Below are positions 25,818-45,067 of a DNA stretch of 64,000 nt, in pieces. The stretch comes from a virus. The translations under genes and the position numbers were made by a program. The number at the start of each line of letters is the position of its first letter. Position 1 is the stretch's first letter. The DNA is taken from positions 1-64,000 of the IMG/VR virus record IMGVR_UViG_3300022745_000628. One strand, 5' to 3'. The notes below the pieces were generated by a model that was not told the DNA's origin, searched no databases, and was given only the letters and a program-made list of their open reading frames with translations.

Positions 25818-25837
25818 GCTAAATCTAGGACGAAAAC

Positions 25838-26835: not shown

Positions 26836-27051
26836 ATGACAGAATTGACTGATAAAGAGGTATGCCATAGGCTGTGCGTACGGGATCCTAGGTACCCGTT
26901 GTTTGAGGAGTTGTATCCTGATGATGAAGAGATACCGGTTCCTAGAACAAATTGCTACTGCGACAATTGTTTTTACGGACGTGACGCATTAGCGTTAGAA
27001 ATATTACGGCTACGCTCAGAGATAGCTCGTGCTGCAAATGTTCGTAAATAG
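26836..27051 (+). CDS. CDNCFYGRD-type phage protein (71 aa)
   Basis: Reads MTELTDKEVCHRLCVRDPRYP ... C-Y-C-D-N-C-F-Y-G-R-D-A-L-A-L-E-I. This small family (L-x-D-x-E ... R-L-C-V-R-D-P-R ... C-x-C-D-N-C-F-Y-G-R-D) is familiar from phage genomes. The cysteines probably bind zinc. Function unknown. It overlaps the first array gene by 14 bases. Confidence 0.75.
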   Translation: MTELTDKEVCHRLCVRDPRYPLFEELYPDDEEIPVPRTNCYCDNCFYGRDALALEILRLRSEIARAANVRK

Positions 27052-27283
27052 AGAGATGTGGAAAAAATTAGACGCGAACAAGTTAAAGCATAGTTTCCCT
27101 AATGCTTATGATATTCCTATAATGCTTGGACAGTTTATACCGTATTCGCTGATGCTGTCGTTCGATTTAGTGTTTAACCGTGTCTCGGCGCAATCAAATG
27201 CCGCAGGAGTTTGGGCAATTGGAGAACAGCTGCGCATCCATATAAATAGGTTTAACGCTTATTACGACGGGATGCGCGGATGA
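27038..27283 (+). CDS. MW-KL array 1 (81 aa)
   Basis: Signature VNREMWKKL at residues 3-11. The start lies 14 bases inside the CDNCFYGRD gene. The remainder is hydrophobic in the middle (LMLSFDLVFNRV), with no Y-A-G. Confidence 0.85.
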   Translation: MFVNREMWKKLDANKLKHSFPNAYDIPIMLGQFIPYSLMLSFDLVFNRVSAQSNAAGVWAIGEQLRIHINRFNAYYDGMRG

Positions 27284-27534
27284 TAGCACCAACATTAAAT
27301 TCACAGATGTGGAGAAAGCTAACGATGTCGCCCGGTACGGACGCTACGTTATCAGTTCTCAAGCCTTACAATGGGCGATGCGTTGGCAGCTTAGGCACGC
27401 TCCAAGATATAAGCTGTACAGCATCAAGCTTTATTTTTACGACAGCGCTTTATGTGCCAGATCATACTTTAACTACTATAGTGTGGCAGATTTTGGAGGG
27501 CAGGCGCCCACCGGTTCGGATAGAATATGCGTAA
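27280..27534 (+). CDS. MW-KL array 2 (84 aa)
   Basis: Starts MIAPTLNSQMWRKLTM, ATGA-coupled. The C-terminal half is strand-like and Thr-rich (SSFIFTTALYVPDHTLTTIV). Confidence 0.85.
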   Translation: MIAPTLNSQMWRKLTMSPGTDATLSVLKPYNGRCVGSLGTLQDISCTASSFIFTTALYVPDHTLTTIVWQILEGRRPPVRIEYA

Positions 27535-27823
27535 TTTATTAATAAATCGTGTTATGTGGTTAAAACTGCGCTGCGGCGAGAGTTATTACGTTCATATGCC
27601 GTGCAATATTGTTTCGGTAAATGACGCGACGGTTGGTGTGATAAACAAGTATGCGCCGAATAATTTTTGGGAACATTTTAGGCACAACTGGTTTGAAAGT
27701 TATAAGATAAATAAGCGTGACCGCAGAGATGCTTGGCACGCTCTAATACAGCACCAGTTTATGAGCGACGCGTGTCGGCTGGCAGCGGTGCCTAAAGGGC
27801 TAGGTATCGGCGCGTATGTGTAA
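27527..27823 (+). CDS. MW-KL array 3 (98 aa)
   Basis: Signature LINRVMWLKL. The middle is rich in Trp, Phe and Arg (NFWEHFRHNWFESY), unlike its neighbours. Confidence 0.85.
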   Translation: MRNLLINRVMWLKLRCGESYYVHMPCNIVSVNDATVGVINKYAPNNFWEHFRHNWFESYKINKRDRRDAWHALIQHQFMSDACRLAAVPKGLGIGAYV

Positions 27824-28139
27824 CTACAACATTTGCGATAAAAACTATATGCAAGCAGATTTAACAATTAGTCAACAAATGTGGGTCAAATTGTGCTTAA
27901 CCAAACATATAAAGCCACTCGCGTACTCCAGTGCTCTTGACAGTGTTTCAAATTACGTGTATGCCGGAAGCGTAACGCAGTTTTCGACAGATACTGTGCG
28001 ATTATTGCATACTTACGTTCCAGAACGCAGCTTAAATACTAAAACTGTGAGGATGACCGCCGTTATGACATGGGACGAATGCAGATTATTCGAAATTCTC
28101 GACTTGAGTGTTAAAAAATTTAGATTGCCGAAGGAATAG
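27816..28139 (+). CDS. MW-KL array 4 (107 aa)
   Basis: Signature ISQQMWVKL, 20 residues from the ATG that overlaps array 3; a second ATG at 27849 (MQADL) would give the usual short lead. V-Y-A-G-S is present near residue 49. Confidence 0.85.
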   Translation: MCNYNICDKNYMQADLTISQQMWVKLCLTKHIKPLAYSSALDSVSNYVYAGSVTQFSTDTVRLLHTYVPERSLNTKTVRMTAVMTWDECRLFEILDLSVKKFRLPKE

Positions 28140-28142
28140 CCT

Positions 28143-28454
28143 ATGTTTCCGAGACTCGGTCGAAAGCCGTATTCTAAGAAGTTTCAGATTCCAACTTTGA
28201 TGATTAACGATCAAATTTGGGAAAAACTATATCTAAAGGCAGCTGGCTTAATCGGGAGTTCTAGTTTCGGAAATCATTGGGCTGCTAGAATTCCAAGCAA
28301 TACCGATGTTGCGCAAAAAGGCGTACTCGGTTGCATAGTTTACTTGCGCTACCCGTTTAGCCCGCTAGCAGGCGCCACAAATAAGTTGGAGGCTATTATT
28401 GTCAATGAAGTCGGGGCTTACGATGCAAATAGAGGCAAAGAGAATGTCCGATAG
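28143..28454 (+). CDS. MW-KL array 5 (103 aa)
   Basis: Signature INDQIWEKLYL, with Ile for Met, after a 20-residue basic lead (GRKPYSKKF). Gly/Ser-rich stretch follows. It overlaps the next gene by 32 bases, the largest overlap in the array. Confidence 0.75.
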   Translation: MFPRLGRKPYSKKFQIPTLMINDQIWEKLYLKAAGLIGSSSFGNHWAARIPSNTDVAQKGVLGCIVYLRYPFSPLAGATNKLEAIIVNEVGAYDANRGKENVR

Positions 28455-28680
28455 CATAGCGCGGGACATTGCTGCCATATGCGGAGTATACGCGTACTTT
28501 CCTACTAAACAGCTGATAGGTTTTAGTGTTACATTCTATAACACTAGGGAAGATATGCCAGTAGCGTACTTTTTACGGGATTACAAGCGTATTGTTTCAA
28601 TTATCGGAGCTCCGCTGATTCTGCCGATTTACAAATTAAGACAGGAGTTGCCTAACCGTTATGCTACGGCTGTACATTAA
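28423..28680 (+). CDS. MW-KL array 6, eroded motif (85 aa)
   Basis: Start taken at ATG 28423 (MQIEAKRMSDSIARDI), where K-R-M-S-D-S-I stands in the signature position without Trp. Strands rich in Phe and Tyr follow. Confidence 0.65.
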   Translation: MQIEAKRMSDSIARDIAAICGVYAYFPTKQLIGFSVTFYNTREDMPVAYFLRDYKRIVSIIGAPLILPIYKLRQELPNRYATAVH

Positions 28681-28900
28681 AATGCCCGTTGCACAAAAAA
28701 TGCATCGTAAGGTAAATGGTCAGAATTCGTATGTGCTGCAGCTAATTCAGCAGCAAACAGGGGCTGCGGCGACTCGTGGCACTGGCATAAAGCTGCCGAA
28801 TATGACGACAGGTTGGGCAATTTACGCGTGTATCTCTAATATAGTGCAGCAACGAGAGCTGCTTAACTTAGAAAATTGCGAGGTTCATCATGTCCGGTAG
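28661..28900 (+). CDS. MW-KL array 7, eroded motif (79 aa)
   Basis: V-A-Q-K-M-H-R-K-V replaces the signature (His for Trp). Q-Q-Q-T-G-A-A-A-T is a Gln/Ala-rich loop not seen elsewhere in the array. Confidence 0.65.
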   Translation: MLRLYIKMPVAQKMHRKVNGQNSYVLQLIQQQTGAAATRGTGIKLPNMTTGWAIYACISNIVQQRELLNLENCEVHHVR

Positions 28901-29180
28901 TAAATATGTAAATGTGGCAATGTGGGCGAAATGCGTGCGGTTAGGCAGTCCAGACGCGCCCCGTACGCCGTTTGACACGTGGTTCATATATGAATATTGG
29001 CTAAACCCGGCTCGCGGCCAATACGCACCTGCTAAATCCGCACGTTGTACGCAACTTGCATTTTTGTGCAGAGATATAACTGATCGCTACCCGTTACGTG
29101 TTTTAGAGGTTAGGCATATCTGCAGAATTATTATCAAATTGTCACTTGTACGTAGACTTGCAATAACGGTAGTTGCGTGA
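28890..29180 (+). CDS. MW-KL array 8 (96 aa)
   Basis: Signature VNVAMWAKCVRL. The C-terminus is strongly hydrophobic and basic (IIIKLSLVRRLAITVVA). Eleven-base overlap with array 7. Confidence 0.85.
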   Translation: MSGSKYVNVAMWAKCVRLGSPDAPRTPFDTWFIYEYWLNPARGQYAPAKSARCTQLAFLCRDITDRYPLRVLEVRHICRIIIKLSLVRRLAITVVA

Positions 29181-29461
29181 CACAAAGAAATGAATCAATG
29201 AGTATTGCCAATAGTGAGCGTAACATCAATTTCTTGATGTGGAAAACACTGTGTATGAACGATTATGTGCGCGGCGGGCTCAGAAATTCGATACAGCCGT
29301 CGATGTTTGTAGCGCCATTTTGCATACCTTTTGTGGACTTATCCCGACCATACATTATCAATAACGCAGGGCTTACACCCTGTTTGGGTAATCCCCGTTG
29401 GCTGCGCAATGAGGCTGAATGGCGAACACACAAATTTTTAGGAAAAACGTTAGTAGCGTGA
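29177..29461 (+). CDS. MW-KL array 9 (94 aa)
   Basis: GTG start at 29177 in a GTGA junction. Signature INFLMWKTLCM at residues 17-27. Pro/Phe-rich centre (FVAPFCIPFVDLSRPY). Confidence 0.85.
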   Translation: MTQRNESMSIANSERNINFLMWKTLCMNDYVRGGLRNSIQPSMFVAPFCIPFVDLSRPYIINNAGLTPCLGNPRWLRNEAEWRTHKFLGKTLVA

Positions 29462-29718
29462 TGGGCGCCAAAACGCTAAACATACCAATGTGGGCGCGAC
29501 TAGCAATGGATACAACAATGCCAAGTTACTGTAACACGCCTGCCGCTTTCGCGGCAGTAGCTCCGATACCGAAGGTATACATATTGCAGACGGCATTGGT
29601 ACATACCTTGTTTAATTTAAGCAATCGATATCATGTACGATTGCCATTGTTACGTGTTGAAAGTGTGCGCAGTTGCCCAGATACTTGCGCTGTAACCGTT
29701 ATGTTTTACGTAGCTTAG
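29461..29718 (+). CDS. MW-KL array 10 (85 aa)
   Basis: Its ATG shares one base with the previous TGA. MGAKTLNIPMWARLAM gives a full signature. Ala-rich after the motif; ends VTVMFYVA. Confidence 0.85.
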   Translation: MGAKTLNIPMWARLAMDTTMPSYCNTPAAFAAVAPIPKVYILQTALVHTLFNLSNRYHVRLPLLRVESVRSCPDTCAVTVMFYVA

Positions 29719-29739
29719 AAACAACATTGGGAGATAAAT

Positions 29740-30015
29740 ATGTTAGAAACGGTAATGCGCAAAATGGCGCTTCGTTTAAGTGTATGTAGCGGTCAGTGCG
29801 TTTGCAAACCGAGTACAGATATGTTCTACATAGACAGCAGTGGTCAGGCGTTATACATAGGTTTTTTTGCACATAGGGGGAACCGACCTACGGACTACAA
29901 CGATATATCCGTGGCACTGGCAGATATACAACTTGCAGTGAGGCAGTGTGCCACCCTGGGAGATATTCTAAAAATTGGAGATTTCATGCTTGATACGGGT
30001 TGGTACACACAGTGA
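29740..30015 (+). CDS. MW-KL array 11, eroded motif (91 aa)
   Basis: MLETVMRKMALRLSV, where Trp is replaced by Ala. Preceded by GGGAG, one of few visible SD sites. Cys-rich segment CSGQCVCK near residue 16. Confidence 0.7.
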   Translation: MLETVMRKMALRLSVCSGQCVCKPSTDMFYIDSSGQALYIGFFAHRGNRPTDYNDISVALADIQLAVRQCATLGDILKIGDFMLDTGWYTQ

Positions 30016-30025
30016 CACGGGCACA

Positions 30026-30295
30026 ATGATGTTAAAAAATGAAAACGTAACGGTGTCTGTAGAAATGTGGCGTAAACTCGGCTGGCCAACCAATCGCGCG
30101 TTTTTTTCGGCTAACAGTACTTGTTACGTTCAGGCTGAGTTTACTGTTTGTGCTAAAAAAGTTGTTGACAGCGACACTATAGATCCATATCAGACGCTCG
30201 CAAATGTGGCGCCGTCGGCGGTAGTACGCCGTACTACTGAAATGACCCGCTGCGTCAGAAGCACTACGTTCAATGGATTAAGGCTGCTGATCTAA
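30026..30295 (+). CDS. MW-KL array 12 (89 aa)
   Basis: Signature VSVEMWRKLGW at residues 9-19. Two adjacent ATGs at 30026 and 30029. Thr/Val-rich second half. Confidence 0.85.
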   Translation: MMLKNENVTVSVEMWRKLGWPTNRAFFSANSTCYVQAEFTVCAKKVVDSDTIDPYQTLANVAPSAVVRRTTEMTRCVRSTTFNGLRLLI

Positions 30296-30585
30296 TGTTG
30301 AAACAAGTTAACCGGGATTTGTCTAAGGGCGCCACGACTACATTATCTAAAAAGATGTGGGACAAGTTAGCTGACGCACCAATGCATCACGATATAGTTG
30401 CTAATATTCCGTACGCCGGCGCCGCCACATCTGAAATACTGAGTAGCGCTCATTATCATGGAATTTTGTGTATGCCGTCGGCCCACGGGAACAATACCGC
30501 CCATTTTGCGTGTCAAATATCTAACCTACTACCCATGCCGGAATTTTACTATAAGTGGCAAAAACATAATAGTAATAATGAATGA
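30295..30585 (+). CDS. MW-KL array 13 (96 aa)
   Basis: Signature LSKKMWDKLAD at residues 18-28, then I-P-Y-A-G-A, showing both landmarks. His-rich middle (HYHGILCMPSAHG). Confidence 0.85.
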   Translation: MLKQVNRDLSKGATTTLSKKMWDKLADAPMHHDIVANIPYAGAATSEILSSAHYHGILCMPSAHGNNTAHFACQISNLLPMPEFYYKWQKHNSNNE

Positions 30586-30832
30586 TATGCAAAACGTTAA
30601 GTTGAACAGAGTTATGTGGAGTTTAGTCGCCGATTTCAATGGCGGTCCCCGGAAGCACACGGATTTTGACCCTGGTAACTTATATTTCGGGAACATAGCG
30701 ATTTATAACGCGATACCGGCAGAAGCCGTGCAGCTTGTGGCGTGGTACGGCGAGCATATACCAGGGTTGCGACCCATAGATGTTCTTACCTATCTTTACC
30801 GCGTAGTGCCTTATCGCTTTCGAAATGAATAG
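30578..30832 (+). CDS. MW-KL array 14 (84 aa)
   Basis: Start ATG 30578 gives MNDMQNVKLNRVMWSLVAD. Y-F-G-N at the Y-A-G position. The C-terminus is aromatic and ends YRFRNE. Confidence 0.85.
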   Translation: MNDMQNVKLNRVMWSLVADFNGGPRKHTDFDPGNLYFGNIAIYNAIPAEAVQLVAWYGEHIPGLRPIDVLTYLYRVVPYRFRNE

Positions 30833-31058
30833 ATTAATGTGGAGCAAGTTAATGACCGATCCTGCGAGTGATACGTCTATGCGTGATACGTATCCGCGTA
30901 ACGCAACATATCCGGAACACTATACGCAACCCGATTTTGTTAAAGACAGCACGTACGCTGTAGTAAGTAGTTACTTATTTAAGATGTATGCTATTCGATC
31001 AAGTCGTATAATATCCTACCGAATACACGAAATAGCGATAAGGACGCCATATGCCTAA
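30825..31058 (+). CDS. MW-KL array 15 (77 aa)
   Basis: MNRLMWSKLM is the shortest lead in the array: the motif begins at residue 2. Suggests the lead before Asn is dispensable. Confidence 0.85.
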   Translation: MNRLMWSKLMTDPASDTSMRDTYPRNATYPEHYTQPDFVKDSTYAVVSSYLFKMYAIRSSRIISYRIHEIAIRTPYA

Positions 31059-31347
31059 GCGCTTACCAAATGTGCAAATGTGGCGGAAACTGGCAATCGT
31101 TGGAACTGGCCCATATGCTCCGGCGCCTGATAATTATCACGCGCGCAAATCAACAGATTTCTGGTATTCCAACGCGCTGATCCTATCAACTGAGCAATTA
31201 ACTGGGGCTAATCAGGTTTTAGATTTTTTGGCGCATAACCCTGACACTGGATCTGTGTTTACGTCTAGCTTAGGCGGATTCTCTGACGTACTAGCGACAA
31301 CAATGTTTAAACGCAATATGTTCGGGGTATTGTGGAGTACTTTATAG
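31051..31347 (+). CDS. MW-KL array 16 (98 aa)
   Basis: Signature LPNVQMWRKLAI. F-W-Y-S-N-A follows near residue 37. A long central Leu/Thr helix. Confidence 0.85.
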   Translation: MPKRLPNVQMWRKLAIVGTGPYAPAPDNYHARKSTDFWYSNALILSTEQLTGANQVLDFLAHNPDTGSVFTSSLGGFSDVLATTMFKRNMFGVLWSTL

Positions 31348-31568
31348 TGGTAAACACAAAAATTATGTATATGTTATCGTTAGGCGTGCATCTTGGAAGC
31401 CATATGCCCAATTATTGGTATGCGGGTGATATACCTTTGCAAATACAGTACAGATATCCCGTGTTCAGTACTTTAAATTTCTTACGCAGAGAGCGTGCGT
31501 TTCCTAATAGTTTTGTTTGCGCTGTTTATCCGGAAATATACGAGGCCACGAGAGGCTTAGGACAGTAA
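31347..31568 (+). CDS. MW-KL array 17, eroded motif (73 aa)
   Basis: GTG start in a TAGTG junction with array 16. V-N-T-K-I-M-Y-M-L-S-L has Tyr for Trp, but W-Y-A-G-D is intact near residue 29. Confidence 0.7.
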   Translation: MVNTKIMYMLSLGVHLGSHMPNYWYAGDIPLQIQYRYPVFSTLNFLRRERAFPNSFVCAVYPEIYEATRGLGQ

Positions 31569-31572
31569 TGCC

Positions 31573-31860
31573 ATGAGAAATTCCAGATCGTTAAATTGCC
31601 GAATGTGGGACAAATTACGCGTGGATAGCATAAGACCTGATTGGAGCGAATCTCCGGGCCCCATGTTTTATTCAGGTTTGAAGCTTATAGAGATACAATA
31701 CGCGGTAGGTCGCTGGGCTCTAATAGTGGACTTTTTGCCCCATTGGGGTTTAGCGGTCATTGCACGCAATGGCTCGTCCCTGATAAACTCTCAAATAAAT
31801 TTGCAAAAAATTGTAAGCAAGGTGAGTAAACATGCAATTACGCTCAACAATGTTGAATAG
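31573..31860 (+). CDS. MW-KL array 18 (95 aa)
   Basis: Signature LNCRMWDKLRV, then M-F-Y-S-G-L at the Y-A-G place. Hydrophobic centre (WALIVDFLPHWGLAVIA). Confidence 0.85.
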   Translation: MRNSRSLNCRMWDKLRVDSIRPDWSESPGPMFYSGLKLIEIQYAVGRWALIVDFLPHWGLAVIARNGSSLINSQINLQKIVSKVSKHAITLNNVE

Positions 31861-32131: not shown

Positions 32132-32134
32132 TTT

Positions 32135-32850: not shown

Positions 32851-32862
32851 GGAGCCGGCTGT

Positions 32863-34869: not shown

Positions 34870-35000
34870 ATTCTGCAATGCTGTACAAAGCCGCTAGTTA
34901 TTACGGTATCGCGTTAAATGTGCACGGTTATTATTTAGACCGGAACAAGCTTAACGATGATGAGAATAGTTATCAAAACGATAGTATTTCATCGTTTTGA
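34863..35000 (+). pseudogene. MW-KL array 30, 5' fragment cut by the transposon
   Basis: ATG overlaps array 29. The frame reads MLNSAMLYKAASYYGIAL (decayed signature N-S-A-M-L-Y-K) and is natural to about 34970. It then continues into transposon sequence to a stop at 35000. Its missing 3' part lies beyond the element at about 36680-36797. Confidence 0.7.
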
Positions 35001-36070
35001 GTCCGATTGTCCGAGCGACTATAAACTGCTCGGTTGAGGATATTGACGGCCGCGTTTGTATCCGCGTCCGTTTCGTACCCACAAGAAACACACCGATAAG
35101 CCAGGCCTACCCTGGAAGATCTATCGATGTTTCCACACCTGGAACAAGTTTGCGAGGTGTAAGCGGCAGGAACATCCTGTACGCCCACACCCTTAGCCGC
35201 GCACTTGTCTTTGATCTTTTGCAATGTCTTGGAATAAACCCACGACGCCATTTTATTGGCGAATCGCCTGGACATTGTTCGAGAGGCTCGGGTGCCGCGC
35301 TTAACGTTTTTAAGCGCTTCAAGCACTACGTAAGTAGGCTGCTCTGCCGCCAGCATCTGATTTACAGCCTTGCCGACAAGGTTGTCTCGTTGCTGCATGG
35401 TGCGCTGGCGGTTTACAGACCCTCGTTTTTGTCTTGCTAGCTTTTCGTAAACCCGTTCTAGCTCTTGCCCATAAATATTGCCGGTAGAAGTAGCGAGTAA
35501 ACGCTTGTAACCGCAATCCACGCCTACTGGTTTATCGCCAGGCGAAGTAGTCGCAGCTACTTCTTTTTCAAAGCAAACATCTAGATAAAATCTGTTACCA
35601 ACTTGCCGCAGTCTGGCGGACTTACTTAGCTGCCAACCGTCTGTAACAAACGCGTTGAAGTGCTTGTGTTTGTGCGTAGGCAGTGCCAGTTTAATCCCCC
35701 TCCCTAGTGAAGCCAGCCTGACCCAGAAATCGAACGAAGTAGTTTGAGCGTTTCTGTCGAAGGTTACAAATCGGCTGTCTAAATTGATCACAGATCGGCG
35801 AAACACAGGTTTACTTGTGCATCGCCCCCGCGATAATCTAGCTTTCGCGGATTTCACGATCTCGGAAGCTTGCTTACCTAAGCATTGCTGCAGCCTTGCG
35901 GATAGCCAACTATCTACTTTTTGCGTTACAAACTTTACCTTAGGAGCCTCCCAAAGTAAGTCGATGTAAAGATTCACTACGCGAACGGCTTCTACCATAA
36001 CTTCGGCTAACGCAGTCTTTTTGCCCGCGTTGCTGTACGCCAAATTGAGTTGGCAACGTCTAATCTCCAT
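34973..36070 (-). CDS. tnpB: TnpB RNA-guided nuclease (365 aa)
   Basis: RuvC-type catalytic residues are all in place: D185 in GVDCGY, E251 in V-V-L-E-A-L, and D337 in D-A-D-T-N-A-A-V-N-I. Between them is a four-Cys zinc finger (C309, C312, C327, C330). The N-terminal 100 residues are basic and match the RNA/target recognition part. Family knowledge: TnpB uses an omega RNA from the element's end to cut the donor site and so maintain the transposon. Length is normal for compact TnpB. Its ATG overlaps the end of tnpA by 11 bases, so the two are co-expressed. Confidence 0.9.
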   Translation of the reverse strand: MEIRRCQLNLAYSNAGKKTALAEVMVEAVRVVNLYIDLLWEAPKVKFVTQKVDSWLSARLQQCLGKQASEIVKSAKARLSRGRCTSKPVFRRSVINLDSRFVTFDRNAQTTSFDFWVRLASLGRGIKLALPTHKHKHFNAFVTDGWQLSKSARLRQVGNRFYLDVCFEKEVAATTSPGDKPVGVDCGYKRLLATSTGNIYGQELERVYEKLARQKRGSVNRQRTMQQRDNLVGKAVNQMLAAEQPTYVVLEALKNVKRGTRASRTMSRRFANKMASWVYSKTLQKIKDKCAAKGVGVQDVPAAYTSQTCSRCGNIDRSSRVGLAYRCVSCGYETDADTNAAVNILNRAVYSRSDNRTQNDEILSF

Positions 36071-36617
36071 GTTGCAACTCCTGTATCAATTTTTCTGTGT
36101 TACGTTGCGTCCTACGACGCCCATAAAGGCGAGCGCAGAAACTGGTGACAATGGCCACAAAATCTTGCATTAGGTCGCTTTTGTCGTCCATCGCTGGGTT
36201 TATGACTACAAACTCACAAGCTGGTTTTGCTGCTACCAGCAAGTTAAAACCAAATCGCGTCAGCCGGTCCTTATGCTCTATCACAATCCTGGCAACTGTA
36301 TCGTCTCGCAAAATCTTTAGTAACTTTTTACGATCGTCATTTAGTCCGCTTCCGATCTCCGTAACAATGTCTGAGACTATCCAACCTTTGGCAGCGCAAA
36401 AGCTAGCTACGCGTTCGGCCTGGGTTGTCAGCTTGCTTTTGTTTTGAGCAGAGCTCACGCGCGCGTAAACAATCGTCTTGCCAACTATTGCGGCATCTTC
36501 TATACACACGGTACCAGTTGGCAGCCTATACGCCCCAGGTATTTTTCCTGCCTTGAATTGCTTCCACGCGGTTTGGTAAGTAATGCCGTGTTGTTTTGCG
36601 TAATCTCGTAATCTCAT
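36060..36617 (-). CDS. tnpA: IS607-family serine-recombinase transposase (185 aa)
   Basis: Residues 1-40 form a MerR-like helix-turn-helix (RLRDYAKQHGITYQTAWKQ). The catalytic domain starts I-V-Y-A-R-V-S-S (nucleophile serine about residue 55), then Q-A-E-R-V and E-H-K-D-R-L-T-R near 115. This is the small IS607 architecture with the DNA-binding domain in front. TATAAT on the - strand (36626-36631) lies 6 bases before the ATG. Confidence 0.9.
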   Translation of the reverse strand: MRLRDYAKQHGITYQTAWKQFKAGKIPGAYRLPTGTVCIEDAAIVGKTIVYARVSSAQNKSKLTTQAERVASFCAAKGWIVSDIVTEIGSGLNDDRKKLLKILRDDTVARIVIEHKDRLTRFGFNLLVAAKPACEFVVINPAMDDKSDLMQDFVAIVTSFCARLYGRRRTQRNTEKLIQELQHGD

Positions 36618-36679
36618 GTTTTTATTATAGCAAAGGAATACAAAAGACTATGCCTTATTCAAAAGAATTTCAATACCTT

Positions 36680-36797: not shown

Positions 36798-37023
36798 TAT
36801 TAAAATGTGGTTACGCCTTGTGATATTTCCAATACATAAGTTTCGGCGTCGCGAGCCACATGACGGGTTGTATGCTGGGGTCGTAACACCAGAATTTCGC
36901 ATAATGCTGGATCAGGGAATGGCAATAGCCCACATACATTCAAAAGTACATATGTTGCAGTCTATGCCTGTGGAGCTCCCTGTACATCATGTAATCGAGG
37001 AAATCGTTTATGACAGAGCTTAA
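36787..37023 (+). CDS. MW-KL array 31 (78 aa)
   Basis: TTG start with CAGGAG 7 bases before it. M-S-F-N-I-K-M-W-L-R-L gives a compact lead, then L-Y-A-G-V-V. An upstream ATG at 36697 in frame would include sequence of the interrupted gene and is rejected. Ends V-I-E-E-I-V-Y-D-R-A. Confidence 0.8.
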   Translation: MSFNIKMWLRLVIFPIHKFRRREPHDGLYAGVVTPEFRIMLDQGMAIAHIHSKVHMLQSMPVELPVHHVIEEIVYDRA

Positions 37024-37261
37024 AGAAATGGAAGAGTGGTGGTCTGTAAACAAGCTCATGTGGGACAGACTAGCGGCAGCAGCAATAATACGCGAGCGAC
37101 CAGCGGACATACGGTACGCTGGCGAAGCACGCGCTTTCTTTGCTAAGCTGTCGCATCAAGCGTATAAAATATCAGGTACGTATGAGGCCAGATTTCGAAA
37201 TATGTCTGGGCAGATCGCCGTATATTATGTAATCTCGGAAATTGTCCATGTCAAAACATAG
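37010..37261 (+). CDS. MW-KL array 32, high-identity subgroup (83 aa)
   Basis: First of about ten very similar copies. VNKLMWDRLAA, R-Y-A-G-E, then an end V-I-S-E-I-V-H-V-K-T. The ATG lies within the codons for V-Y of the preceding gene. Confidence 0.9.
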   Translation: MTELKEMEEWWSVNKLMWDRLAAAAIIRERPADIRYAGEARAFFAKLSHQAYKISGTYEARFRNMSGQIAVYYVISEIVHVKT

Positions 37262-37499
37262 CGAACAGTTAGTCAGATTGTCAATAAACAAGCTCATGTG
37301 GGATAAGTTAGCTGTAGCAGCGTCTGAGTACGAGAGTCCGAGTAATTTCTGTTACGCCGGTGGCATGGACGCTTTAGTAATTAACATGTCGCTGTCCCAC
37401 TATGCCGTATTATTATCCTACGCTGATAAACATAAACATCAGCCAATGTTTATCGGCGTGCAGCGGTTAATCGTGAGAATTGTCGATGCCAAAACATAG
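37248..37499 (+). CDS. MW-KL array 33, high-identity subgroup (83 aa)
   Basis: MSKHSEQLVRLSINKLMWDKLAV. A-S-E-Y-E-S-P and C-Y-A-G-G are shared almost exactly with array 34. The start is in the V-H codons of array 32. Confidence 0.9.
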   Translation: MSKHSEQLVRLSINKLMWDKLAVAASEYESPSNFCYAGGMDALVINMSLSHYAVLLSYADKHKHQPMFIGVQRLIVRIVDAKT

Positions 37500-37734
37500 A
37501 GAACTTTCAATGAAATTAGCAGTAAACGAACTCATGTGGGATAGGTTAGCCGTTACAGCATCTGAGTACGAGCGGCTGTCTGAGTTCTGTTATGCGGGCG
37601 GTGTTAGCCGTTTACTAGCTAACATATCGATCCAACAATATAAAGGATTACTAGCTCATATAGAGAATCTTAGACATACCTCCACGCATCTTATCTTGCA
37701 GGTACTTATCCAGAAAACTGTACGGCAAAGCTAG
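37486..37734 (+). CDS. MW-KL array 34, high-identity subgroup (82 aa)
   Basis: MPKHRELSMKLAVNELMWDRLAV, with the same T/A-A-S-E-Y-E-R and F-C-Y-A-G-G as array 33. It has lost the usual tail (ends KTVRQS) and is followed by a 10-base gap containing an echo of the normal start (TAGAGAACTTTCA). Confidence 0.9.
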   Translation: MPKHRELSMKLAVNELMWDRLAVTASEYERLSEFCYAGGVSRLLANISIQQYKGLLAHIENLRHTSTHLILQVLIQKTVRQS

Positions 37735-37744
37735 AGAACTTTCA

Positions 37745-37972
37745 ATGAAATTAACAGTAAATAAGCTCATGTGGGATAGGTTAGCGATTGAGAGCATTGA
37801 TTTCCAGCCAGCGCATAATACCGCATACTCCGGTAGCAGAGAGGCTTTAGTAGCTAAAATGCAATATAAGCAGTATACTTACTTCATGGAGTGGATACCT
37901 ATGGTGCAGTATCACCTAAGTTTGGTTGTAGTGGATAGGGCAGTCAGGCGCATATTGTATGCCAGAACATAG
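37745..37972 (+). CDS. MW-KL array 35, high-identity subgroup (75 aa)
   Basis: Starts MKLTVNKLMWDRLAI and lacks the 8-residue lead of its neighbours, although the DNA just upstream (AACTTTCA) resembles the lead of array 34. I-D-F-Q-P and A-Y-S-G-S match array 38. Confidence 0.9.
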   Translation: MKLTVNKLMWDRLAIESIDFQPAHNTAYSGSREALVAKMQYKQYTYFMEWIPMVQYHLSLVVVDRAVRRILYART

Positions 37973-38210
37973 CAAACTTTCAATTCGCCGGCCAGTAAAC
38001 AAGCTCATGTGGGATAAGCTAGCGGTTAAGTCAAATAGTGATGAGTATCCGAGTGCCGTACAGTACGCTGGGGATACATCCCCTTTAGTAAATAAGATAA
38101 CGTGGCAAGGTTATAACACAGTGATGGCATATGTAAGCTTGATGAGATACAGTTCCGCATATTACGCAGTATATGATTTAATAGAGGAAATTGTTTATGA
38201 CAAAAGCTAA
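37959..38210 (+). CDS. MW-KL array 36, high-identity subgroup (83 aa)
   Basis: MPEHSKLSIRRPVNKLMWDKLAV, Q-Y-A-G-D, tail L-I-E-E-I-V-Y-D-K-S. 14-base overlap at each end. Confidence 0.9.
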   Translation: MPEHSKLSIRRPVNKLMWDKLAVKSNSDEYPSAVQYAGDTSPLVNKITWQGYNTVMAYVSLMRYSSAYYAVYDLIEEIVYDKS

Positions 38211-38448
38211 CAGGCGTCCAATCAAATTACCAGTAAACCGGCTTATGTGGGATAGCTTAGCGATTAAAGCAGATGAGTACGAGAATCCGGCTCATGTCTG
38301 TTATGCCGGCAGTAAGGACGCTTTAGTAGCTAAAGTAACGCTGGCGCACTATCACGGATTACTAGACTATGCATATAATACGCAAAATATTTCATCGTCT
38401 ATTAGCCTGCAGCAATTAATCAGGAGAACTGCGAATGTCAAGCCATAA
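38197..38448 (+). CDS. MW-KL array 37, high-identity subgroup (83 aa)
   Basis: MTKANRRPIKLPVNRLMWDSL. Its first 60 bases are nearly identical to array 38. D-E-Y-E-N-P and C-Y-A-G-S are shared with array 33. Confidence 0.9.
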   Translation: MTKANRRPIKLPVNRLMWDSLAIKADEYENPAHVCYAGSKDALVAKVTLAHYHGLLDYAYNTQNISSSISLQQLIRRTANVKP

Positions 38449-38686
38449 CAAACATCCAATCAAATTACCAGTAAACCGGCTTATGTGGGATAGTCTAGCA
38501 GTCGAGCCCATTGATTTCCAGATACCGCACGATACATGTTACGCTGGCAGTACGACTGGTTTATTAACTAAGATGCCGAAGGCGCAATATAACGTATTAC
38601 TAGACATGGTAGCTGTTATGCCGTATCCGCAGACTTCTCTTGTCGTGTATAGTCTATTAAAGAGAATTTGGCATGTCGGAGTATAA
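38435..38686 (+). CDS. MW-KL array 38, high-identity subgroup (83 aa)
   Basis: MSSHNKHPIKLPVNRLMWDSL. The N-terminal third matches array 37, but the next block (I-D-F-Q-I-P) matches array 35, so it looks like a recombinant. Confidence 0.9.
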   Translation: MSSHNKHPIKLPVNRLMWDSLAVEPIDFQIPHDTCYAGSTTGLLTKMPKAQYNVLLDMVAVMPYPQTSLVVYSLLKRIWHVGV

Positions 38687-38930
38687 CAAACATCCAATCA
38701 AATTACCAATAAATAAGCTTATGTGGAATAAGCTAGCGGCCAATTCATTAGAGAAGGAGCTACCGAATCACACCGTTTGCGCTGGCGATATAGGCGCTTT
38801 CATGCCTGACAGGCCATCGTCGTCGTCGGAAGATTACCAAGCGCTATACTATGCCGCTAGATTGTCAAATGTATTTGTGGACTTCGTTGCGCATGCGGCA
38901 ATCGGTGAAATTGTTTATGGCAAAAATTAA
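38673..38930 (+). CDS. MW-KL array 39, high-identity subgroup (85 aa)
   Basis: The lead MSEYNKHPIKLPINKLMW is almost that of array 38. After the motif the sequence switches to L-E-K-E-L-P, V-C-A-G-D and a Ser-rich loop (PSSSSEDY). Confidence 0.9.
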   Translation: MSEYNKHPIKLPINKLMWNKLAANSLEKELPNHTVCAGDIGAFMPDRPSSSSEDYQALYYAARLSNVFVDFVAHAAIGEIVYGKN

Positions 38931-39177
38931 TAAATTTCTAGTGAAATTACCAGTAAACAAGCTCATGTGGGATAGGTTGTCGGCTGACGCGTTAGAGAGT
39001 GAGCTGCCTGGTAACTACTATTACTCCGGCCGATTTAACAGCGCCATGTATAGCCGGCAATGGCAGGCATGCGGCATAATACTAGCCGTTGCAGAGGATC
39101 CGCGGTATCTTCGACAGTCTAACGAGTCTAACGGCGTGCACAAAATAATCTTGGAAATTGTGCATGCCCGCACATAA
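38917..39177 (+). CDS. MW-KL array 40, high-identity subgroup (86 aa)
   Basis: MAKINKFLVKLPVNKLMWDRL. L-E-S-E-L-P matches array 39. Y-Y-S-G-R at the Y-A-G place. Tail I-I-L-E-I-V-H-A-R-T. Confidence 0.9.
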   Translation: MAKINKFLVKLPVNKLMWDRLSADALESELPGNYYYSGRFNSAMYSRQWQACGIILAVAEDPRYLRQSNESNGVHKIILEIVHART

Positions 39178-39430
39178 CGAACATCCGGTCAAATTGACGG
39201 TGAATAAGCTTATGTGGTACGCACTGACGGATGCGCCCATTTATTATGAAATAATGATTGACACTTGTTACGCTGGTAGCGCCGGGCCTTTCTTAGATGT
39301 CATGCGATGGGTTCAATATAAAACACTGCTGGACCACGTCAATAGAACGATGCCAGCCGATAGTTTGCAACTGACGCTGCTAAGCAGCGCTACCGTCCCA
39401 CTTCTAAAACTAGACCGGTTTCAAAAATGA
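39164..39430 (+). CDS. MW-KL array 41 (88 aa)
   Basis: MPAHNEHPVKLTVNKLMWYAL, C-Y-A-G-S, Q-Y-K-T-L-L. Last member of the high-identity block; its C-terminus (PLLKLDRFQK) differs. Confidence 0.9.
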   Translation: MPAHNEHPVKLTVNKLMWYALTDAPIYYEIMIDTCYAGSAGPFLDVMRWVQYKTLLDHVNRTMPADSLQLTLLSSATVPLLKLDRFQK

Positions 39431-40190: not shown

Positions 40191-40201
40191 CGGGCTAGTT
40201 A

Positions 40202-40522
40202 ATGCAAACAACGCAACACAATGTTGAAATTTTGACTCCGAATAATAAAATGTGGGACAAGCTGCTGTATGCGACAGCCGGGAGAGTAGCCAAAATACCC
40301 GCGAATTTAGAACTGTATACTCCGGGCAATATATGGGGTACGTATATCGCGCACTGGCATATTAACCACCTGTTTAGCTGTAAAATGGCTGTGGTGCAAC
40401 TGGACGAAGTCGTAGAAGTGTTGTGTGGCGGGGATATGCGCATACGCGCGTACGTAAGTACATATTCGTACATCGATTTTGTTATACGTACCGCGATATA
40501 CGCACATACAGACAAATTTTAA
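40202..40522 (+). CDS. MW-KL array 45 (106 aa)
   Basis: Signature PNNKMWDKLLY at residues 14-24. Y-T-P-G-N-I-W-G follows. Tyr-rich end (RAYVSTYSYIDFVIRTAI). Confidence 0.85.
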   Translation: MQTTQHNVEILTPNNKMWDKLLYATAGRVAKIPANLELYTPGNIWGTYIAHWHINHLFSCKMAVVQLDEVVEVLCGGDMRIRAYVSTYSYIDFVIRTAIYAHTDKF

Positions 40523-40525
40523 ATT

Positions 40526-40765
40526 ATGCTGCCAACCATAAATACTAAGATGTGGTGGACATTGTCGCCTAGTCACGGCCCTATTACGCGAGATATACAG
40601 ATAAATCGCGGCTTCTCGGTGGGTACCCCTGCATTGGCAGTTCGGATGCACATGCACCTCGATCAAAACATTAATATTTTTTACAGTTTGAATTATAAAT
40701 CTCCGTATAGTTCTGTGGAGTCGATCGTGCAAAGTATCGCTAAAAGAATGTGTGCTGACAGGTGA
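40526..40765 (+). CDS. MW-KL array 46 (79 aa)
   Basis: MLPTINTKMWWTLSPS, three bases after array 45. F-S-V-G-T replaces Y-A-G. Ends I-V-Q-S-I-A-K-R-M. Confidence 0.85.
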   Translation: MLPTINTKMWWTLSPSHGPITRDIQINRGFSVGTPALAVRMHMHLDQNINIFYSLNYKSPYSSVESIVQSIAKRMCADR

Positions 40766-41031
40766 TTACAGGCAACAGTGTCAGCAAACGAATGTGGGAA
40801 AAATTAACAATACCCGGCTGGATTGCTGTCGGATGCATAGTTGCTCCACAAATAGGTGTTATGTCCGCGGATGGCGGATTGTTTAGCCGTGTACACGACA
40901 TATGTCCAGCGGGCGACGGCGCGCAATTTTGGTTGCAATCCGCGCCTCAGAATTTTATGGCGCATTTCATACGTAAAGAATTAGCGCACATCTGTATCGC
41001 CATCGCTATACAGAATAGCGGTCGCGCATGA
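40762..41031 (+). CDS. MW-KL array 47 (89 aa)
   Basis: GTG start in a GTGA junction. MITGNSVSKRMWEKLTI. Gly/Ala-rich centre, tail with I-A-I-A-I-Q. Confidence 0.85.
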   Translation: MITGNSVSKRMWEKLTIPGWIAVGCIVAPQIGVMSADGGLFSRVHDICPAGDGAQFWLQSAPQNFMAHFIRKELAHICIAIAIQNSGRA

Positions 41032-41273
41032 CTAACTATATCCCACTAAATATCCGGATGTGGCACAAGTTAAGTGGCGGGTATATTGCGGGTAGTTCGT
41101 TAAAATCCAGCTCGAAGTATGGCGGTATTTTGGATGCTCCACACGCAGGTATTTCGGTACAAGGCTACACCATGCACAATCTGTTTCTACACAACGCTTG
41201 CGAGGAAATAGCACACTTTAACTATGGTAACACAATTAGGCTATATAGCCTATTTGCGCACCTACTGTACTAG
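41028..41273 (+). CDS. MW-KL array 48 (81 aa)
   Basis: ATGA junction. MTNYIPLNIRMWHKLSGG. Ser-rich loop (AGSSLKSSSKYGG), then a His/Asn-rich helix. Confidence 0.85.
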   Translation: MTNYIPLNIRMWHKLSGGYIAGSSLKSSSKYGGILDAPHAGISVQGYTMHNLFLHNACEEIAHFNYGNTIRLYSLFAHLLY

Positions 41274-41293
41274 TATGTCTGATCGGAGGTAAC

Positions 41294-41566
41294 GTGAATT
41301 CGACAATTGCAGTTAGCATGCATATGATAGCGATTGGGGCAAAAAATACTGCGGTTCCGACTAATGGAACCACATGGAGTATAGGCGCCTGGGAGGTGCT
41401 CAAGGCGTCGTACAATACATGCGGGGACGCCTATGGCAAGAGTAGTGTATTGACGCTACTACTAAATCCAATTGTTTATAGATGGCGTAATGTTGCGAAA
41501 AGTGTCTACATTCTTGAGATCATAGAGGCTGCCAAAATTTCAGAGGAGGTAGAAGTATGTTTATGA
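41294..41566 (+). CDS. MW-KL array 49, eroded motif (90 aa)
   Basis: GTG with GGAGGT just upstream. S-T-I-A-V-S-M-H-M-I-A-I keeps only the Met. One of the few members with a good SD. Confidence 0.7.
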   Translation: MNSTIAVSMHMIAIGAKNTAVPTNGTTWSIGAWEVLKASYNTCGDAYGKSSVLTLLLNPIVYRWRNVAKSVYILEIIEAAKISEEVEVCL

Positions 41567-41817
41567 GAGACCTAATACAAATTCAAATATATCAAAAGCT
41601 TAGCGACGACCAAATCTGCCCGTCGCGAATAACACGTGAAACGCGGCTATTCCATCATGAACTATATCCGGCAATTAGGAAAACTGTCGGGACTAGGCTG
41701 GGTAGTTACGCTAGTTTTATGGATCACGCCCTTACCTTTGACGTGCAGGCAGACATACTGTCCGAGTTGTACAACCATTTGCCTAAATCGTGGGGAGATA
41801 GCGTTGTTACTAGCTGA
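41557..41817 (+). CDS. MW-KL array 50, eroded motif (86 aa)
   Basis: AGGAGGT 7 bases before the ATG. Q-I-Q-I-Y-Q-K-L-S replaces the signature (Tyr at Trp, no Met). Confidence 0.7.
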   Translation: MFMRDLIQIQIYQKLSDDQICPSRITRETRLFHHELYPAIRKTVGTRLGSYASFMDHALTFDVQADILSELYNHLPKSWGDSVVTS

Positions 41818-42052
41818 TCAAATGTGGCATAAAATTAATCACGGTCGTATGAGCGGGCACGACATAAAGCCCGTTCATTTTGCAAGCATAGACTTGCGAG
41901 TGTGCGTGTTGCGGCAATTGGAGTACTCACACGCTATGTCCGATTGGATGCATGCTGCTGATGGGTTGCACAGCACCTTTACAGCAGTATCGCGCGCCAT
42001 GTACCGGCGAACCGCAACACTAACATATTTCAAACAATCGGTAAGAGTATGA
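41804..42052 (+). CDS. MW-KL array 51 (82 aa)
   Basis: TTG 41804 gives M-L-L-A-D-Q-M-W-H-K-I-N. His/Met-rich. Longer in-frame starts upstream would lie deep inside array 50. Confidence 0.8.
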   Translation: MLLADQMWHKINHGRMSGHDIKPVHFASIDLRVCVLRQLEYSHAMSDWMHAADGLHSTFTAVSRAMYRRTATLTYFKQSVRV

Positions 42053-42270
42053 AAAACCTGGGAGATAGAACGATAGCCTGGCACATGCTGCGACTTACAG
42101 TTACCAGTGCGTATACCGAGTATATGCGTGTAGTAGAATCAAGCGCACTAGGGTTCTATTATTCAGATGTTGCGACTATAAAAAACATACATAGTTTTGC
42201 GTATAAAAATAAGCACCGCATGGAACAACCGGTGCTTCGTCGTATGGCGGAGTGTATTGCCAATGGTTAA
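42049..42270 (+). CDS. MW-KL array 52, eroded motif (73 aa)
   Basis: R-T-I-A-W-H-M-L-R-L holds Trp and Met in swapped order. Helical, basic C-terminus with four Arg. Confidence 0.7.
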   Translation: MKNLGDRTIAWHMLRLTVTSAYTEYMRVVESSALGFYYSDVATIKNIHSFAYKNKHRMEQPVLRRMAECIANG

Positions 42271-42565
42271 ACGACGAATTAAATTGCGAAAAGGTATTCA
42301 CATTAACAAGCTACCTAATCGGAAAATGTGGTTAAGTCTGTGTCTACGCGCTACAATCAGGGATACGTCTTCCGATCAATACGCTGTCGACGGCTATTCA
42401 TACGCTGGTCCGCTGTGTTCTGAGCAATATCCACATGCGCTGTGGTTGGACGAAATGCTATGGATACAGCGCTGGCAGTTTGTTAATTACGACACTTTTT
42501 ACACTTTTACAAATCTCATAGAATATGACCATTTGCGGCTTATTGTAAAACGTTTACAAGGGTAG
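42263..42565 (+). CDS. MW-KL array 53 (100 aa)
   Basis: ATG 42263 gives a very basic lead (MVKRRIKLRKG) and the signature LPNRKMWLSLCL. S-Y-A-G-P near residue 49. Confidence 0.85.
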   Translation: MVKRRIKLRKGIHINKLPNRKMWLSLCLRATIRDTSSDQYAVDGYSYAGPLCSEQYPHALWLDEMLWIQRWQFVNYDTFYTFTNLIEYDHLRLIVKRLQG

Positions 42566-42569
42566 TTAT

Positions 42570-42794
42570 ATGCTTAATCAAAAAATGTGGGCACTGCTGA
42601 GCTTAGACGGTTATGGCGGCGACGGGTCTCCATGCTATACATTTATGAATGTCAGAAAGCCTAGACGACTCTTTGCGCAGATAGAAGCATTTATTCTGCC
42701 TTGGTTTTTATTAAACAGACACAACAACTTACAGAACAAGCATATAGATAACGAAGTTACACATATTGCGAGTGACGCCATATGGAAAATATAG
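42570..42794 (+). CDS. MW-KL array 54 (74 aa)
   Basis: MLNQKMWALLSLDG, one of the shortest leads. Leu/Asn-rich helix, then V-T-H-I-A-S-D-A-I-W. Confidence 0.85.
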   Translation: MLNQKMWALLSLDGYGGDGSPCYTFMNVRKPRRLFAQIEAFILPWFLLNRHNNLQNKHIDNEVTHIASDAIWKI

Positions 42795-42991
42795 CACGGC
42801 AGATGCAACCAGGCATAGACGGATTTGATAAGACTACATCCGCTCTGGTTGGAGCACCATTCGAAGAATGTGCGTGGATTTTACACTACGGAGTCAGAAC
42901 GCCATACAGTTGTTATCGAGAACTTGAAAAGGCGGTAACCGTTTTTTGTGACAAATTGGAGGCGGCACAATATGAACACCTCTGCGTTTAA
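42782..42991 (+). CDS. MW-KL array 55, eroded motif (69 aa)
   Basis: M-E-N-I-A-R-Q-M-Q-P-G-I; Gln for Trp. L-V-G-A at the Y-A-G place. C-terminal helix Y-R-E-L-E-K-A-V-T-V. Confidence 0.7.
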   Translation: MENIARQMQPGIDGFDKTTSALVGAPFEECAWILHYGVRTPYSCYRELEKAVTVFCDKLEAAQYEHLCV

Positions 42992-43277
42992 AAAACCGCG
43001 CACGATACAACTTCAGATGTTGGAAAAGCTCGTATTAGACCATACAGATCCTCAGTTTTTGACTGGTCCTACGCATAACGGTTTTTTTGGTATCGGCGTA
43101 GCCCGCATAAACAATCGCGTATGGCCGTGCCGGTGGACATGCTGCTCCGAGCTTGCGTACTATATCAGAGGCACGTACGGTATGGAGGCAAAGTTGCGAT
43201 ATACAACGTTACTGTGCATAGACATAACAAGTATAGACAGTCTTTCTGGAGAATGGTGGCATGCAGCCGAAGCTTAA
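42972..43277 (+). CDS. MW-KL array 56 (101 aa)
   Basis: ATG 42972. I-Q-L-Q-M-L-E-K-L-V-L, Leu for Trp. Gly/Trp-rich centre, tail with two Trp. Confidence 0.75.
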   Translation: MNTSAFKKPRTIQLQMLEKLVLDHTDPQFLTGPTHNGFFGIGVARINNRVWPCRWTCCSELAYYIRGTYGMEAKLRYTTLLCIDITSIDSLSGEWWHAAEA

Positions 43278-43515
43278 CGTATTGATGTGGAAAAAGATAG
43301 CATTGGTAAGGCCGGCACGTGCTGAAAAACCTAGTTTTGTGGTATACGCCGGAGTGTTTTTTGCTAATGAAATTGACGCAGACTCGATCATAGCGTGCGT
43401 AACCTATATGTGCGATATTGTTTTGGCATATGCGCTGGCAGGATACAAGCCGCATGGAGACGTCATCACGAACGTCTTTGTCAATTATACGGATGGGATA
43501 GACGTTGGGATATAA
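43261..43515 (+). CDS. MW-KL array 57 (84 aa)
   Basis: MQPKLNVLMWKKIALV and V-V-Y-A-G-V. Cys/Tyr-rich helix, then V-I-T-N-V-F-V. Confidence 0.85.
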   Translation: MQPKLNVLMWKKIALVRPARAEKPSFVVYAGVFFANEIDADSIIACVTYMCDIVLAYALAGYKPHGDVITNVFVNYTDGIDVGI

Positions 43516-43534
43516 AACAAAATCGGGAGCTGTC

Positions 43535-43801
43535 ATGATCAATCGTCAAATGTGGAACAAGCTTGCTTTTTTCGGAATTTGGCCAGGCGAACCTCCGAGT
43601 AGTGTGCAATACGTCGGCATGCCGACACCTTGTGTAGTTAAGTTTAGAAATGTGCGCGGCGCTGTGGTAAAAGATGACCACATACATGGAGCGCAATACT
43701 ACGCAGCGCAACTCGATCTACAGCAAGGCTCTTTAGAGGATAGCCTGCTATGGCACTTACACTCGCAAGTTGAATGGGTTATTACATATAAGAATGGGTA
43801 G
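43535..43801 (+). CDS. MW-KL array 58 (88 aa)
   Basis: Start ATG 43535, with GGGAG just upstream. MINRQMWNKLAFF, Q-Y-V-G-M. Ends with a Trp-containing basic tail. Confidence 0.85.
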   Translation: MINRQMWNKLAFFGIWPGEPPSSVQYVGMPTPCVVKFRNVRGAVVKDDHIHGAQYYAAQLDLQQGSLEDSLLWHLHSQVEWVITYKNG

Positions 43802-43809
43802 CGGTAGCA

Positions 43810-44070
43810 ATGCTAAGAATCAATCTAAAAATGCAGGGTAAACTTGTAATGTTTCAAGAATCGCCGGGTCTTAATAGTGGGAATCGGCGGTACTACGGCT
43901 CGGCATATTGTTATATACTTCAAAATAACATGCTAAACAATCTCAGCACATTTAGTCAGTTGGACAATACGCTATTTAAAAGTAACTTCAAATTTAGCTC
44001 CACTACGCTCGCGCCGGACGTAGCCATTTCTAATATTGTGAGTCTCTCAGATGATAAATCAATCCATTAA
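43810..44070 (+). CDS. MW-KL array 59 (86 aa)
   Basis: M-L-R-I-N-L-K-M-Q-G-K-L-V-M: Gln for Trp, the rest of the motif kept. Y-Y-G-S and an Asn/Ser/Phe-rich centre. Confidence 0.8.
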   Translation: MLRINLKMQGKLVMFQESPGLNSGNRRYYGSAYCYILQNNMLNNLSTFSQLDNTLFKSNFKFSSTTLAPDVAISNIVSLSDDKSIH

Positions 44071-44329
44071 TAATAAAATGTGGGTTAAACTCGCGCTAGT
44101 AGTTACGCGTAATTACAACTATGCTGTAAATAACTGGCTATACGCAGGGCGCGCGCCGGCTTACATTTCCGACTGGATACACTATGACGCCTATTGTTAT
44201 ATTGTGCAAGTAACCAATACAATATTGCATTCGCATTCTCTGCATGTATCAGCTGCGCCAGAGGCTTACTTAAACATTACAGTACGCTTTTACCTGAATA
44301 GGAAATATAATGGTCACAGTAAATCGTGA
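44051..44329 (+). CDS. MW-KL array 60 (92 aa)
   Basis: MINQSINNKMWVKLALV and L-Y-A-G-R. 20-base overlap at each end. Confidence 0.85.
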   Translation: MINQSINNKMWVKLALVVTRNYNYAVNNWLYAGRAPAYISDWIHYDAYCYIVQVTNTILHSHSLHVSAAPEAYLNITVRFYLNRKYNGHSKS

Positions 44330-44489
44330 AATGGAGGCAAAACTTGCCGAGGGGAAATCGATGATTAGCATCCGAATGCTCTGCGTTGGGGCCATACACT
44401 ATAAACTTACTGTTGAAGTGCCAGACCACAATATAAAAGACATCATCACGCACATTGTGCACCATACCTACTCGAGAACAAATGCGTAG
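44310..44489 (+). CDS. MW-KL array 61, short (59 aa)
   Basis: ATG 44310 inside array 60; stop TAG 44487-44489 inside array 62. MVTVNREMEAKLAEG carries N-x-E-M-E-x-K-L, Glu for Trp. The helix I-K-D-I-I-T-H-I-V-H-H resembles the subgroup tail. Easily missed because of its length. Confidence 0.7.
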   Translation: MVTVNREMEAKLAEGKSMISIRMLCVGAIHYKLTVEVPDHNIKDIITHIVHHTYSRTNA

Positions 44490-44799
44490 TATTTTGCAGC
44501 AGATGTGGGATAAGCTATGTATATGGTCAGCGGTTTATAGCTCAGACTTAGATAATTCAATGGGTAATCATATGTATAGTGGCGTGACGCGTCCATACTA
44601 TAACGTAGCCAATTGTTCCGCGCGCCATAGCGCTGACTTGGAAATAGTTCTGAAACATCGCTCTGCGATGTATGACTGTTTTGCAGCTCAAAGAAACTCG
44701 CCATTACGCACCAGCGCTGTACATGGAATAATAGGAAAATATGACTATGCCGCGATCTCTAGACGGAAGGTTAAAATAAAGTCCCGTGTTGACGCTTAA
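44482..44799 (+). CDS. MW-KL array 62 (105 aa)
   Basis: Start ATG 44482 gives MRSILQQMWDKLCI. M-Y-S-G-V near residue 33. Long basic tail (SRRKVKIKSRVDA). Confidence 0.85.
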   Translation: MRSILQQMWDKLCIWSAVYSSDLDNSMGNHMYSGVTRPYYNVANCSARHSADLEIVLKHRSAMYDCFAAQRNSPLRTSAVHGIIGKYDYAAISRRKVKIKSRVDA

Positions 44800-45022
44800 T
44801 CAACGAATGTGGAAGACGCTTGCGTTTGGAGGCAGCCTAATGGTTCACTATCCTAGTGATATACGGTACCTAGGCTACAGCTGGTATACTTTTGAAATAA
44901 GAAAAGTCGTAGATAGGGAGGTAGTATACTCCATACTGTATCCGTGGCCTTTAAAATTACATATCAGCGTAGCAGCGGCGTTCGCCAATTCGGCATATCT
45001 TGAGGAGTATCGTTGGTACTAA
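44786..45022 (+). CDS. MW-KL array 63, last member (78 aa)
   Basis: GTG 44786 or TTG 44789. L-T-L-N-Q-R-M-W-K-T-L-A-F and R-Y-L-G-Y. Its stop codon lies within the palindrome GGTACTAAAGTACC at 45015-45028. Confidence 0.85.
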   Translation: MLTLNQRMWKTLAFGGSLMVHYPSDIRYLGYSWYTFEIRKVVDREVVYSILYPWPLKLHISVAAAFANSAYLEEYRWY

Positions 45023-45028: not shown

Positions 45029-45067
45029 GAGTTATATATGCGAAGCACCTAAATTTAAGCCATAAAT

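Follow-up and report, generated by a model that had tools for sequence, protein, structure and literature searches.

What does a phage do with several dozen diverged copies of one small gene set in a row? The question is raised by a tandem array in a virus record of 193,796 bases (IMG/VR IMGVR_UViG_3300022745_000628), of which the window analyzed here comprises bases 1 to 64,000. In this main array, 62 small open reading frames (ORFs) follow one another, mostly overlapping the adjacent ORF by 4, 8, 14, or 20 nt, and 54 of them score at least 8 bits on a matrix of a motif located near the protein start, hydrophobic-[N/S]-x-x-M-W-x-[K/R]-L (Table 1). A preliminary description of the window had counted about 63 paralogs with an N-x-x-M-W-x-K-L start, along with ten outliers at 17.7 to 18.6 and 20.3 to 22.4 kb. 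The array is real, although 8 of its 62 ORFs lack a clear motif; likewise, ten ORFs do lie in the 17.7- to 22.4-kb region, eight with the motif and two without it. The same description had the plus strand filled almost completely by small genes, which is incorrect, since an IS607-type element on the minus strand interrupts the array. This element splits the main array and apparently inserted within a family member.

Both the motif and the reading frames stand far above what shuffled sequence yields. The regular expression [NS]..MW..L has 39 matches in 16.1 kb of the array; the reverse strand has none, and 100 dinucleotide shuffles give a mean of 0.06 and a maximum of 1. The array holds 62 frames that stay free of stops for 70 codons or more, versus 14 expected (shuffle maximum, 23). 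Across both strands of the rest of the 193.8-kb record, just nine sites reach a motif score of at least 8 bits, which is the chance level. A hidden Markov model seeded on 11 close members recovered 39 ORFs at an E value of <0.01, every one of them inside the two clusters; the members align as one family, as had been proposed, and do so through an N-terminal module. Since codon choice at the motif is free among synonyms, Leu being encoded by all six of its codons and Lys/Arg by seven, we conclude that the motif is selected as protein. This variation, together with the absence of a reverse-strand signal, rules out a reading of the motif as noncoding or as a DNA element. The string TMNKLLWK in the phage RNA polymerase, considered as a possible relative of the motif, was dropped because its matrix score of 5.4 is at chance level.

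The proteins follow a common plan, in which an N-terminal module of ~30 residues (the motif, then Y-x-G) precedes a hypervariable body of ~50 residues. Many members had been described as carrying Y-A-G after 20 to 25 residues; Y-x-G is indeed common, but it mostly falls 14 to 20 residues past the motif and is not general, being found in 18 of the 46 members outside a block of young duplicates, versus 2.9 expected and 0 in a control stretch further along. Outside this young block, pairwise scores between bodies average no differently from shuffled sequence (22.8 versus 22.3), and a body-only profile exceeds 5 bits in just 5 of the 46 members. Given these shuffled-level scores and the weak profile, common full-length descent of all bodies is unsupported, and the bodies have either diverged past recognition or been joined, as different bodies, to the N-terminal module. 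In the structure predicted for one member of the young block (predicted local distance difference test [pLDDT] score, 78; predicted template modeling [pTM] score, 0.32), the motif opens the first helix with N/S at the helix-cap position, followed by a loop with Y-x-G and then a long C-terminal helix. The model of a distant member has a similar outline at lower confidence (pLDDT, 65; pTM, 0.24), and no fold matches were found for the predicted structures.

Selection was assessed in the young block, whose ten close tandem paralogs are the youngest duplicates in the array. Here, the motif recurs with a period of ~238 bp, which is not a multiple of 3, so the frame shifts from gene to gene, and all genes but one overlap the preceding gene by 14 nt with the starts as chosen here. 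Among the eight closest genes, synonymous divergence (dS) is 0.6 to 1.0 and of similar size along the gene, while nonsynonymous divergence (dN) rises from 0.17 at the motif to 0.9 to 1.0 in the C-terminal half. We fitted codon site models with a purpose-written program in which branch lengths were fixed from a one-class fit. The one-class model gives a whole-gene dN/dS ratio (omega) of 1.02, and M2a is preferred over M1a with twice the log-likelihood difference (2dlnL) at 23.5, placing 36% of sites in a class with an omega of 2.45 and 15% in a class with an omega of 0.11. In 40 null simulations under M1a, 2dlnL was at most 10.4. The signal persists without two divergent members (2dlnL, 26.2), without overlap codons (17.4), and when the parts of a split gene are given trees of their own (7.6 and 13.8); omega for the C-terminal half by itself is 1.47. 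Constrained sites comprise N, L, M, W, D, and L of the motif, plus E, Y, and G further on. In the young block, then, the motif is under purifying selection and the bodies are diversifying. The preliminary description had suggested strong selection for variety among translated ORFs, and both parts are upheld in this block, the former by the site models and the latter by dN/dS, which shows selection at the protein level. A diversity-generating retroelement was ruled out, as the record contains no match to RVT_1 (reverse transcriptase).

The record belongs to a large, uncultivated tailed phage that encodes a Baseplate_J protein, a multisubunit RNA polymerase of its own, and DNA polymerase A. Its RNA polymerase shares ~30% identity with the enzymes of Salmonella phage Arash and of Vibrio phages D69, D148, and D181. 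A closer relative, IMG/VR 3300024348_000001 (186 kb), is collinear with the array phage across the core (RNA polymerase, 46 to 48% identity; capsid protein, 50%; terminase, 49%), and additional relatives have capsid proteins 47 to 52% identical to that of the array phage. The array profile produced zero matches in 40 records, partly fragments, of phages that are related or share the promoter pattern presented below (14 Arash-type records, the collinear relative with eight contigs sharing that pattern, and 17 capsid-matched relatives); the same profile searches find 43 members in the phage's own record and could overlook members that retained the short motif alone. Among small ORFs of six related genomes queried for constant-head arrays, the top N-terminal pattern occurs in at most 5, versus 34 here. 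Since it is absent from all 40 records, including the collinear relative, the array is accessory, either gained by this lineage or lost from all others sampled, and the fact that none of the related phages searched has it speaks against a core role in structure or assembly.

Broader searches returned nothing comparable. Pfam and PHROGs gave isolated weak matches to single members and no consistent family match, the PDB gave none, and tblastn of one member against GenBank phages found no homolog. A peptide-pattern search of IMG/VR and GTDB genomes, sensitive to close relatives only, also found no homolog; a DNA-pattern search of IMG/VR gave, among the matches listed, single chance-like ones only; and no paper on such arrays was found in the open-access literature. 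The initial impression that no named family carries this signature therefore stands, with sequence, profile, and fold matches all absent, and an exceptional family size is supported in the searches made. This would be, to our knowledge, the largest tandem family of diverged small phage proteins.

A promoter-like element bears on how the array might be expressed. Present in nine copies and detected through k-mer excess in intergenic gaps, it has the form CTAAAT-N13-GCGTCATATAT. All nine copies are on the plus strand and score 44 to 54 bits, whereas the runner-up site in this record scores 2.0; CTAAA is found in every copy though it was unused in detecting the element, and the 17-nt spacing between CTAAAT and CATATA is that of bacterial promoters. 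Seven copies fall within 13.8 to 49.7 kb. The element is also present in the collinear relative and related contigs, and its copies concentrate in the accessory part of both the array phage and the collinear relative. It may be recognized by the RNA polymerase that the phage encodes or by a sigma factor of the phage. Copies at 25,838 and 45,068 flank the main array and none lies within it; because it is enclosed in this way, the array is most simply read as one transcription unit, possibly an early one. A strong hairpin resembling an intrinsic terminator lies between the upstream copy and the first array gene, and it would require read-through if the array is a single unit or could possibly serve as an attenuator. 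Coupled translation is likely in view of how often genes overlap by 4, 8, 14, or 20 nt. No excess of sigma-70 promoters was found, nor any match to Rfam.

Table 1. Coordinates of the array, its outlying members, and associated elements (window positions unless given as record positions)
Feature	Coordinates	Strand	Description
Main array	27029..45022	+	62 small head-to-tail ORFs of ~43 to 126 aa (median, ~88); 54 with motif
Young block	37010..39430	+	Ten close tandem paralogs, youngest duplicates; basis of selection tests
Outlier cluster 1	17743..18636	+	Three motif-bearing ORFs; bodies of 17743 and 18343 mutually close
Outlier cluster 2	20329..22408	+	Seven ORFs, five with motif (20344, 20871, 21350, 21719, 22043)
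IS607-type insertion	34973..36617	-	TnpB-like gene (34973-36070) and serine resolvase (36060-36617)
Promoter-like element, all copies	Window 13799, 14890, 25838, 45068, 48444, 49006, 49702; record 137156, 176430	+	
Element before main array	25816..25855	+	GCGT at 25838; last copy upstream of array
Element after main array	45046..45085	+	GCGT at 45068; directly past last array gene
Intrinsic-terminator-like hairpin	26515..26540	+	Strong; between promoter-like element and first array gene

The explanation we favor, which we give about an even chance of being correct, is that the array represents a multigene family specific to this lineage, whose small soluble proteins interact with the host, most likely in counter-defense or host takeover, are made from one polycistronic unit, and combine a fixed module with variable bodies. 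An arms race with the host is suggested by the accessory position, the absence from relatives, a module with the look of a docking element, the positively selected bodies, and the small soluble nature of the proteins. According to this explanation, one long polycistronic unit would yield all members; the N-terminal module, predicted to consist of a helix with an N/S cap and the residues M, W, and L, followed by a Y-x-G turn, would dock on one common partner or form the fold core; and the hypervariable C-terminal helical body would contact different or changing host targets. The family would have grown by tandem duplication, followed by divergence under positive selection. Consistent with an expanded viral multigene family, its paralogs are tandem, lineage specific, and diverged, and those of the young block show diversifying selection as well. 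A documented precedent is the tandem amplification of the T4 counter-defense gene tifA (PMC9391042), which resembles the array in amplifying a small gene in tandem, to the extent that the array has such a function; unlike the about 62 strongly diverged copies here, the tifA copies are recent, near-identical, and laboratory selected.

A more specific version is possible but doubtful, namely, an arsenal with a constant head and variable bodies in which a shared docking helix would address a common phage or host hub, each body would be specialized for one host defense or target, and the operon would constitute a library of counter-defense specificities. We know of no comparable constant-head arsenal in phages. 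Several points weigh against host interaction as the role of the family. The selection signal comes from ten young genes, in which dS is high, under a model without gene conversion between copies; clustering of the selected sites on one helix face was not significant; the bodies outside the young block are without detectable similarity, leaving a single body fold unsupported; the pTM scores of both structure models are low; and target, partner, and phenotype are assigned by inference. Of the options raised at the outset, host range, anti-defense, decoys, and combinatorial assembly cannot be separated by sequence alone.

The chief rival, which we judge unlikely, is that the members are virion cargo, the N-terminal module being a capsid-targeting tag and the variable bodies entering the host with the DNA, as do T4 internal proteins and giant-phage ejection proteins. 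The T4 internal head proteins do share a plan of a common N-terminal element and a variable remainder, and they are accessory with a role in host interaction, which the array may share; they differ in having few members and a tag cleaved by the prohead protease, whereas in the array residues E, Y, and G beyond the motif are conserved too, a pattern more fold-like than a removable tag. In the giant Salmonella phage SPN3US, paralog family B comprises 20 members shown to be head proteins (PMC5694885). Like the array, it is a large, mostly tandem set of diverged phage paralogs, and its number differs strongly between related phages; yet members in the stretch examined, which holds gp148-154, are ~300 to 500 aa, versus a median of ~88 aa here, and the array profile does not match that stretch. 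Relatives that share the capsid protein would also be expected to have a capsid-targeting system, yet the family was found in none of them. Packaging aside, the members might pair through the constant helix and build a shell, filament, or scaffold of mixed composition, their bodies having diversified to make pairing specific. The common helix could serve as a mutual interface, and making many members from one unit with overlapping genes would favor coordinated amounts. Such a heteromeric assembly is nonetheless quite improbable, given that collinear relatives make particles without the array, that open-ended positive selection is unexpected for internal assembly, and that member numbers are irregular, with one segment broken by the insertion element.

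A different account, and a rather improbable one, holds that most of the array is decaying: a former dosage amplification would have left dozens of drifting copies in which only the N-terminal module is still needed. Motifs that are missing or degenerate in some ORFs, the insertion element within the array, and a whole-gene omega of ~1 in the young block are what drift would produce. The surplus of long stop-free frames points the other way, though amino acid change in the bodies is dense, as do the preference for the omega 2.45 class over neutral sites and the elevated omega of the C-terminal half. Finally, the members could act in superinfection or interphage competition, with components of rival phages, not host defenses, being what they bind and block. 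The same sequence evidence that favors host interaction applies here, and targets in other phages would vary too. Nothing specific speaks against this reading, and Pfam and PHROGs gave no similarity to known exclusion proteins; we consider it very unlikely.

Tandem paralog families are already known in viruses. In large animal DNA viruses, multigene families form lineage-specific tandem arrays of diverged host-interaction genes, although their proteins and hosts are unrelated to those of the array phage. In the distantly related phage Arash, gp73-81 (L161:5003-6743, minus strand) are nine small ORFs in succession beside tRNA genes, with a G-D-x-V motif in most of the ORFs; this run of tandem small genes is similar in arrangement but belongs to a different family with a different motif, with proteins of ~60 aa and nine genes only. 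What sets the present family apart is its scale and its plan of constant head and variable body; the family was unmatched in our searches, and its mechanism stands a fair chance of being new.

Other features of the phage lie outside the array. One ORF (L003:1924-6441, plus strand) fuses RNA polymerase beta to the initial part of beta', as suggested by the matching ORF in Arash-type phages, and the C-terminal part of beta' contains an intein-type Hint module (L003:9964-12819, plus strand). A single ORF couples a uracil-DNA glycosylase domain to the family A DNA polymerase (L008:5249-8599, plus strand). Within the window, LAGLIDADG and intein-type Hint domains occur in two ORFs at 54001-59006 (plus strand), one of which partly matches thymidylate synthase. 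The 193.8-kb record yielded no tRNA gene with a normal anticodon, whereas Arash and Vibrio phage D69 have many tRNA genes.

The array spans about a tenth of the record, and the sampled relatives of this phage group manage without it. If the bodies strike different host systems, a single locus would provide dozens of new counter-defense or host-takeover proteins; if the members are packaged, they would make up an unusually rich set of ejected proteins. Because its constant and variable parts are separable and selection on them is measurable, the family offers a direct way to learn what phages diversify against.
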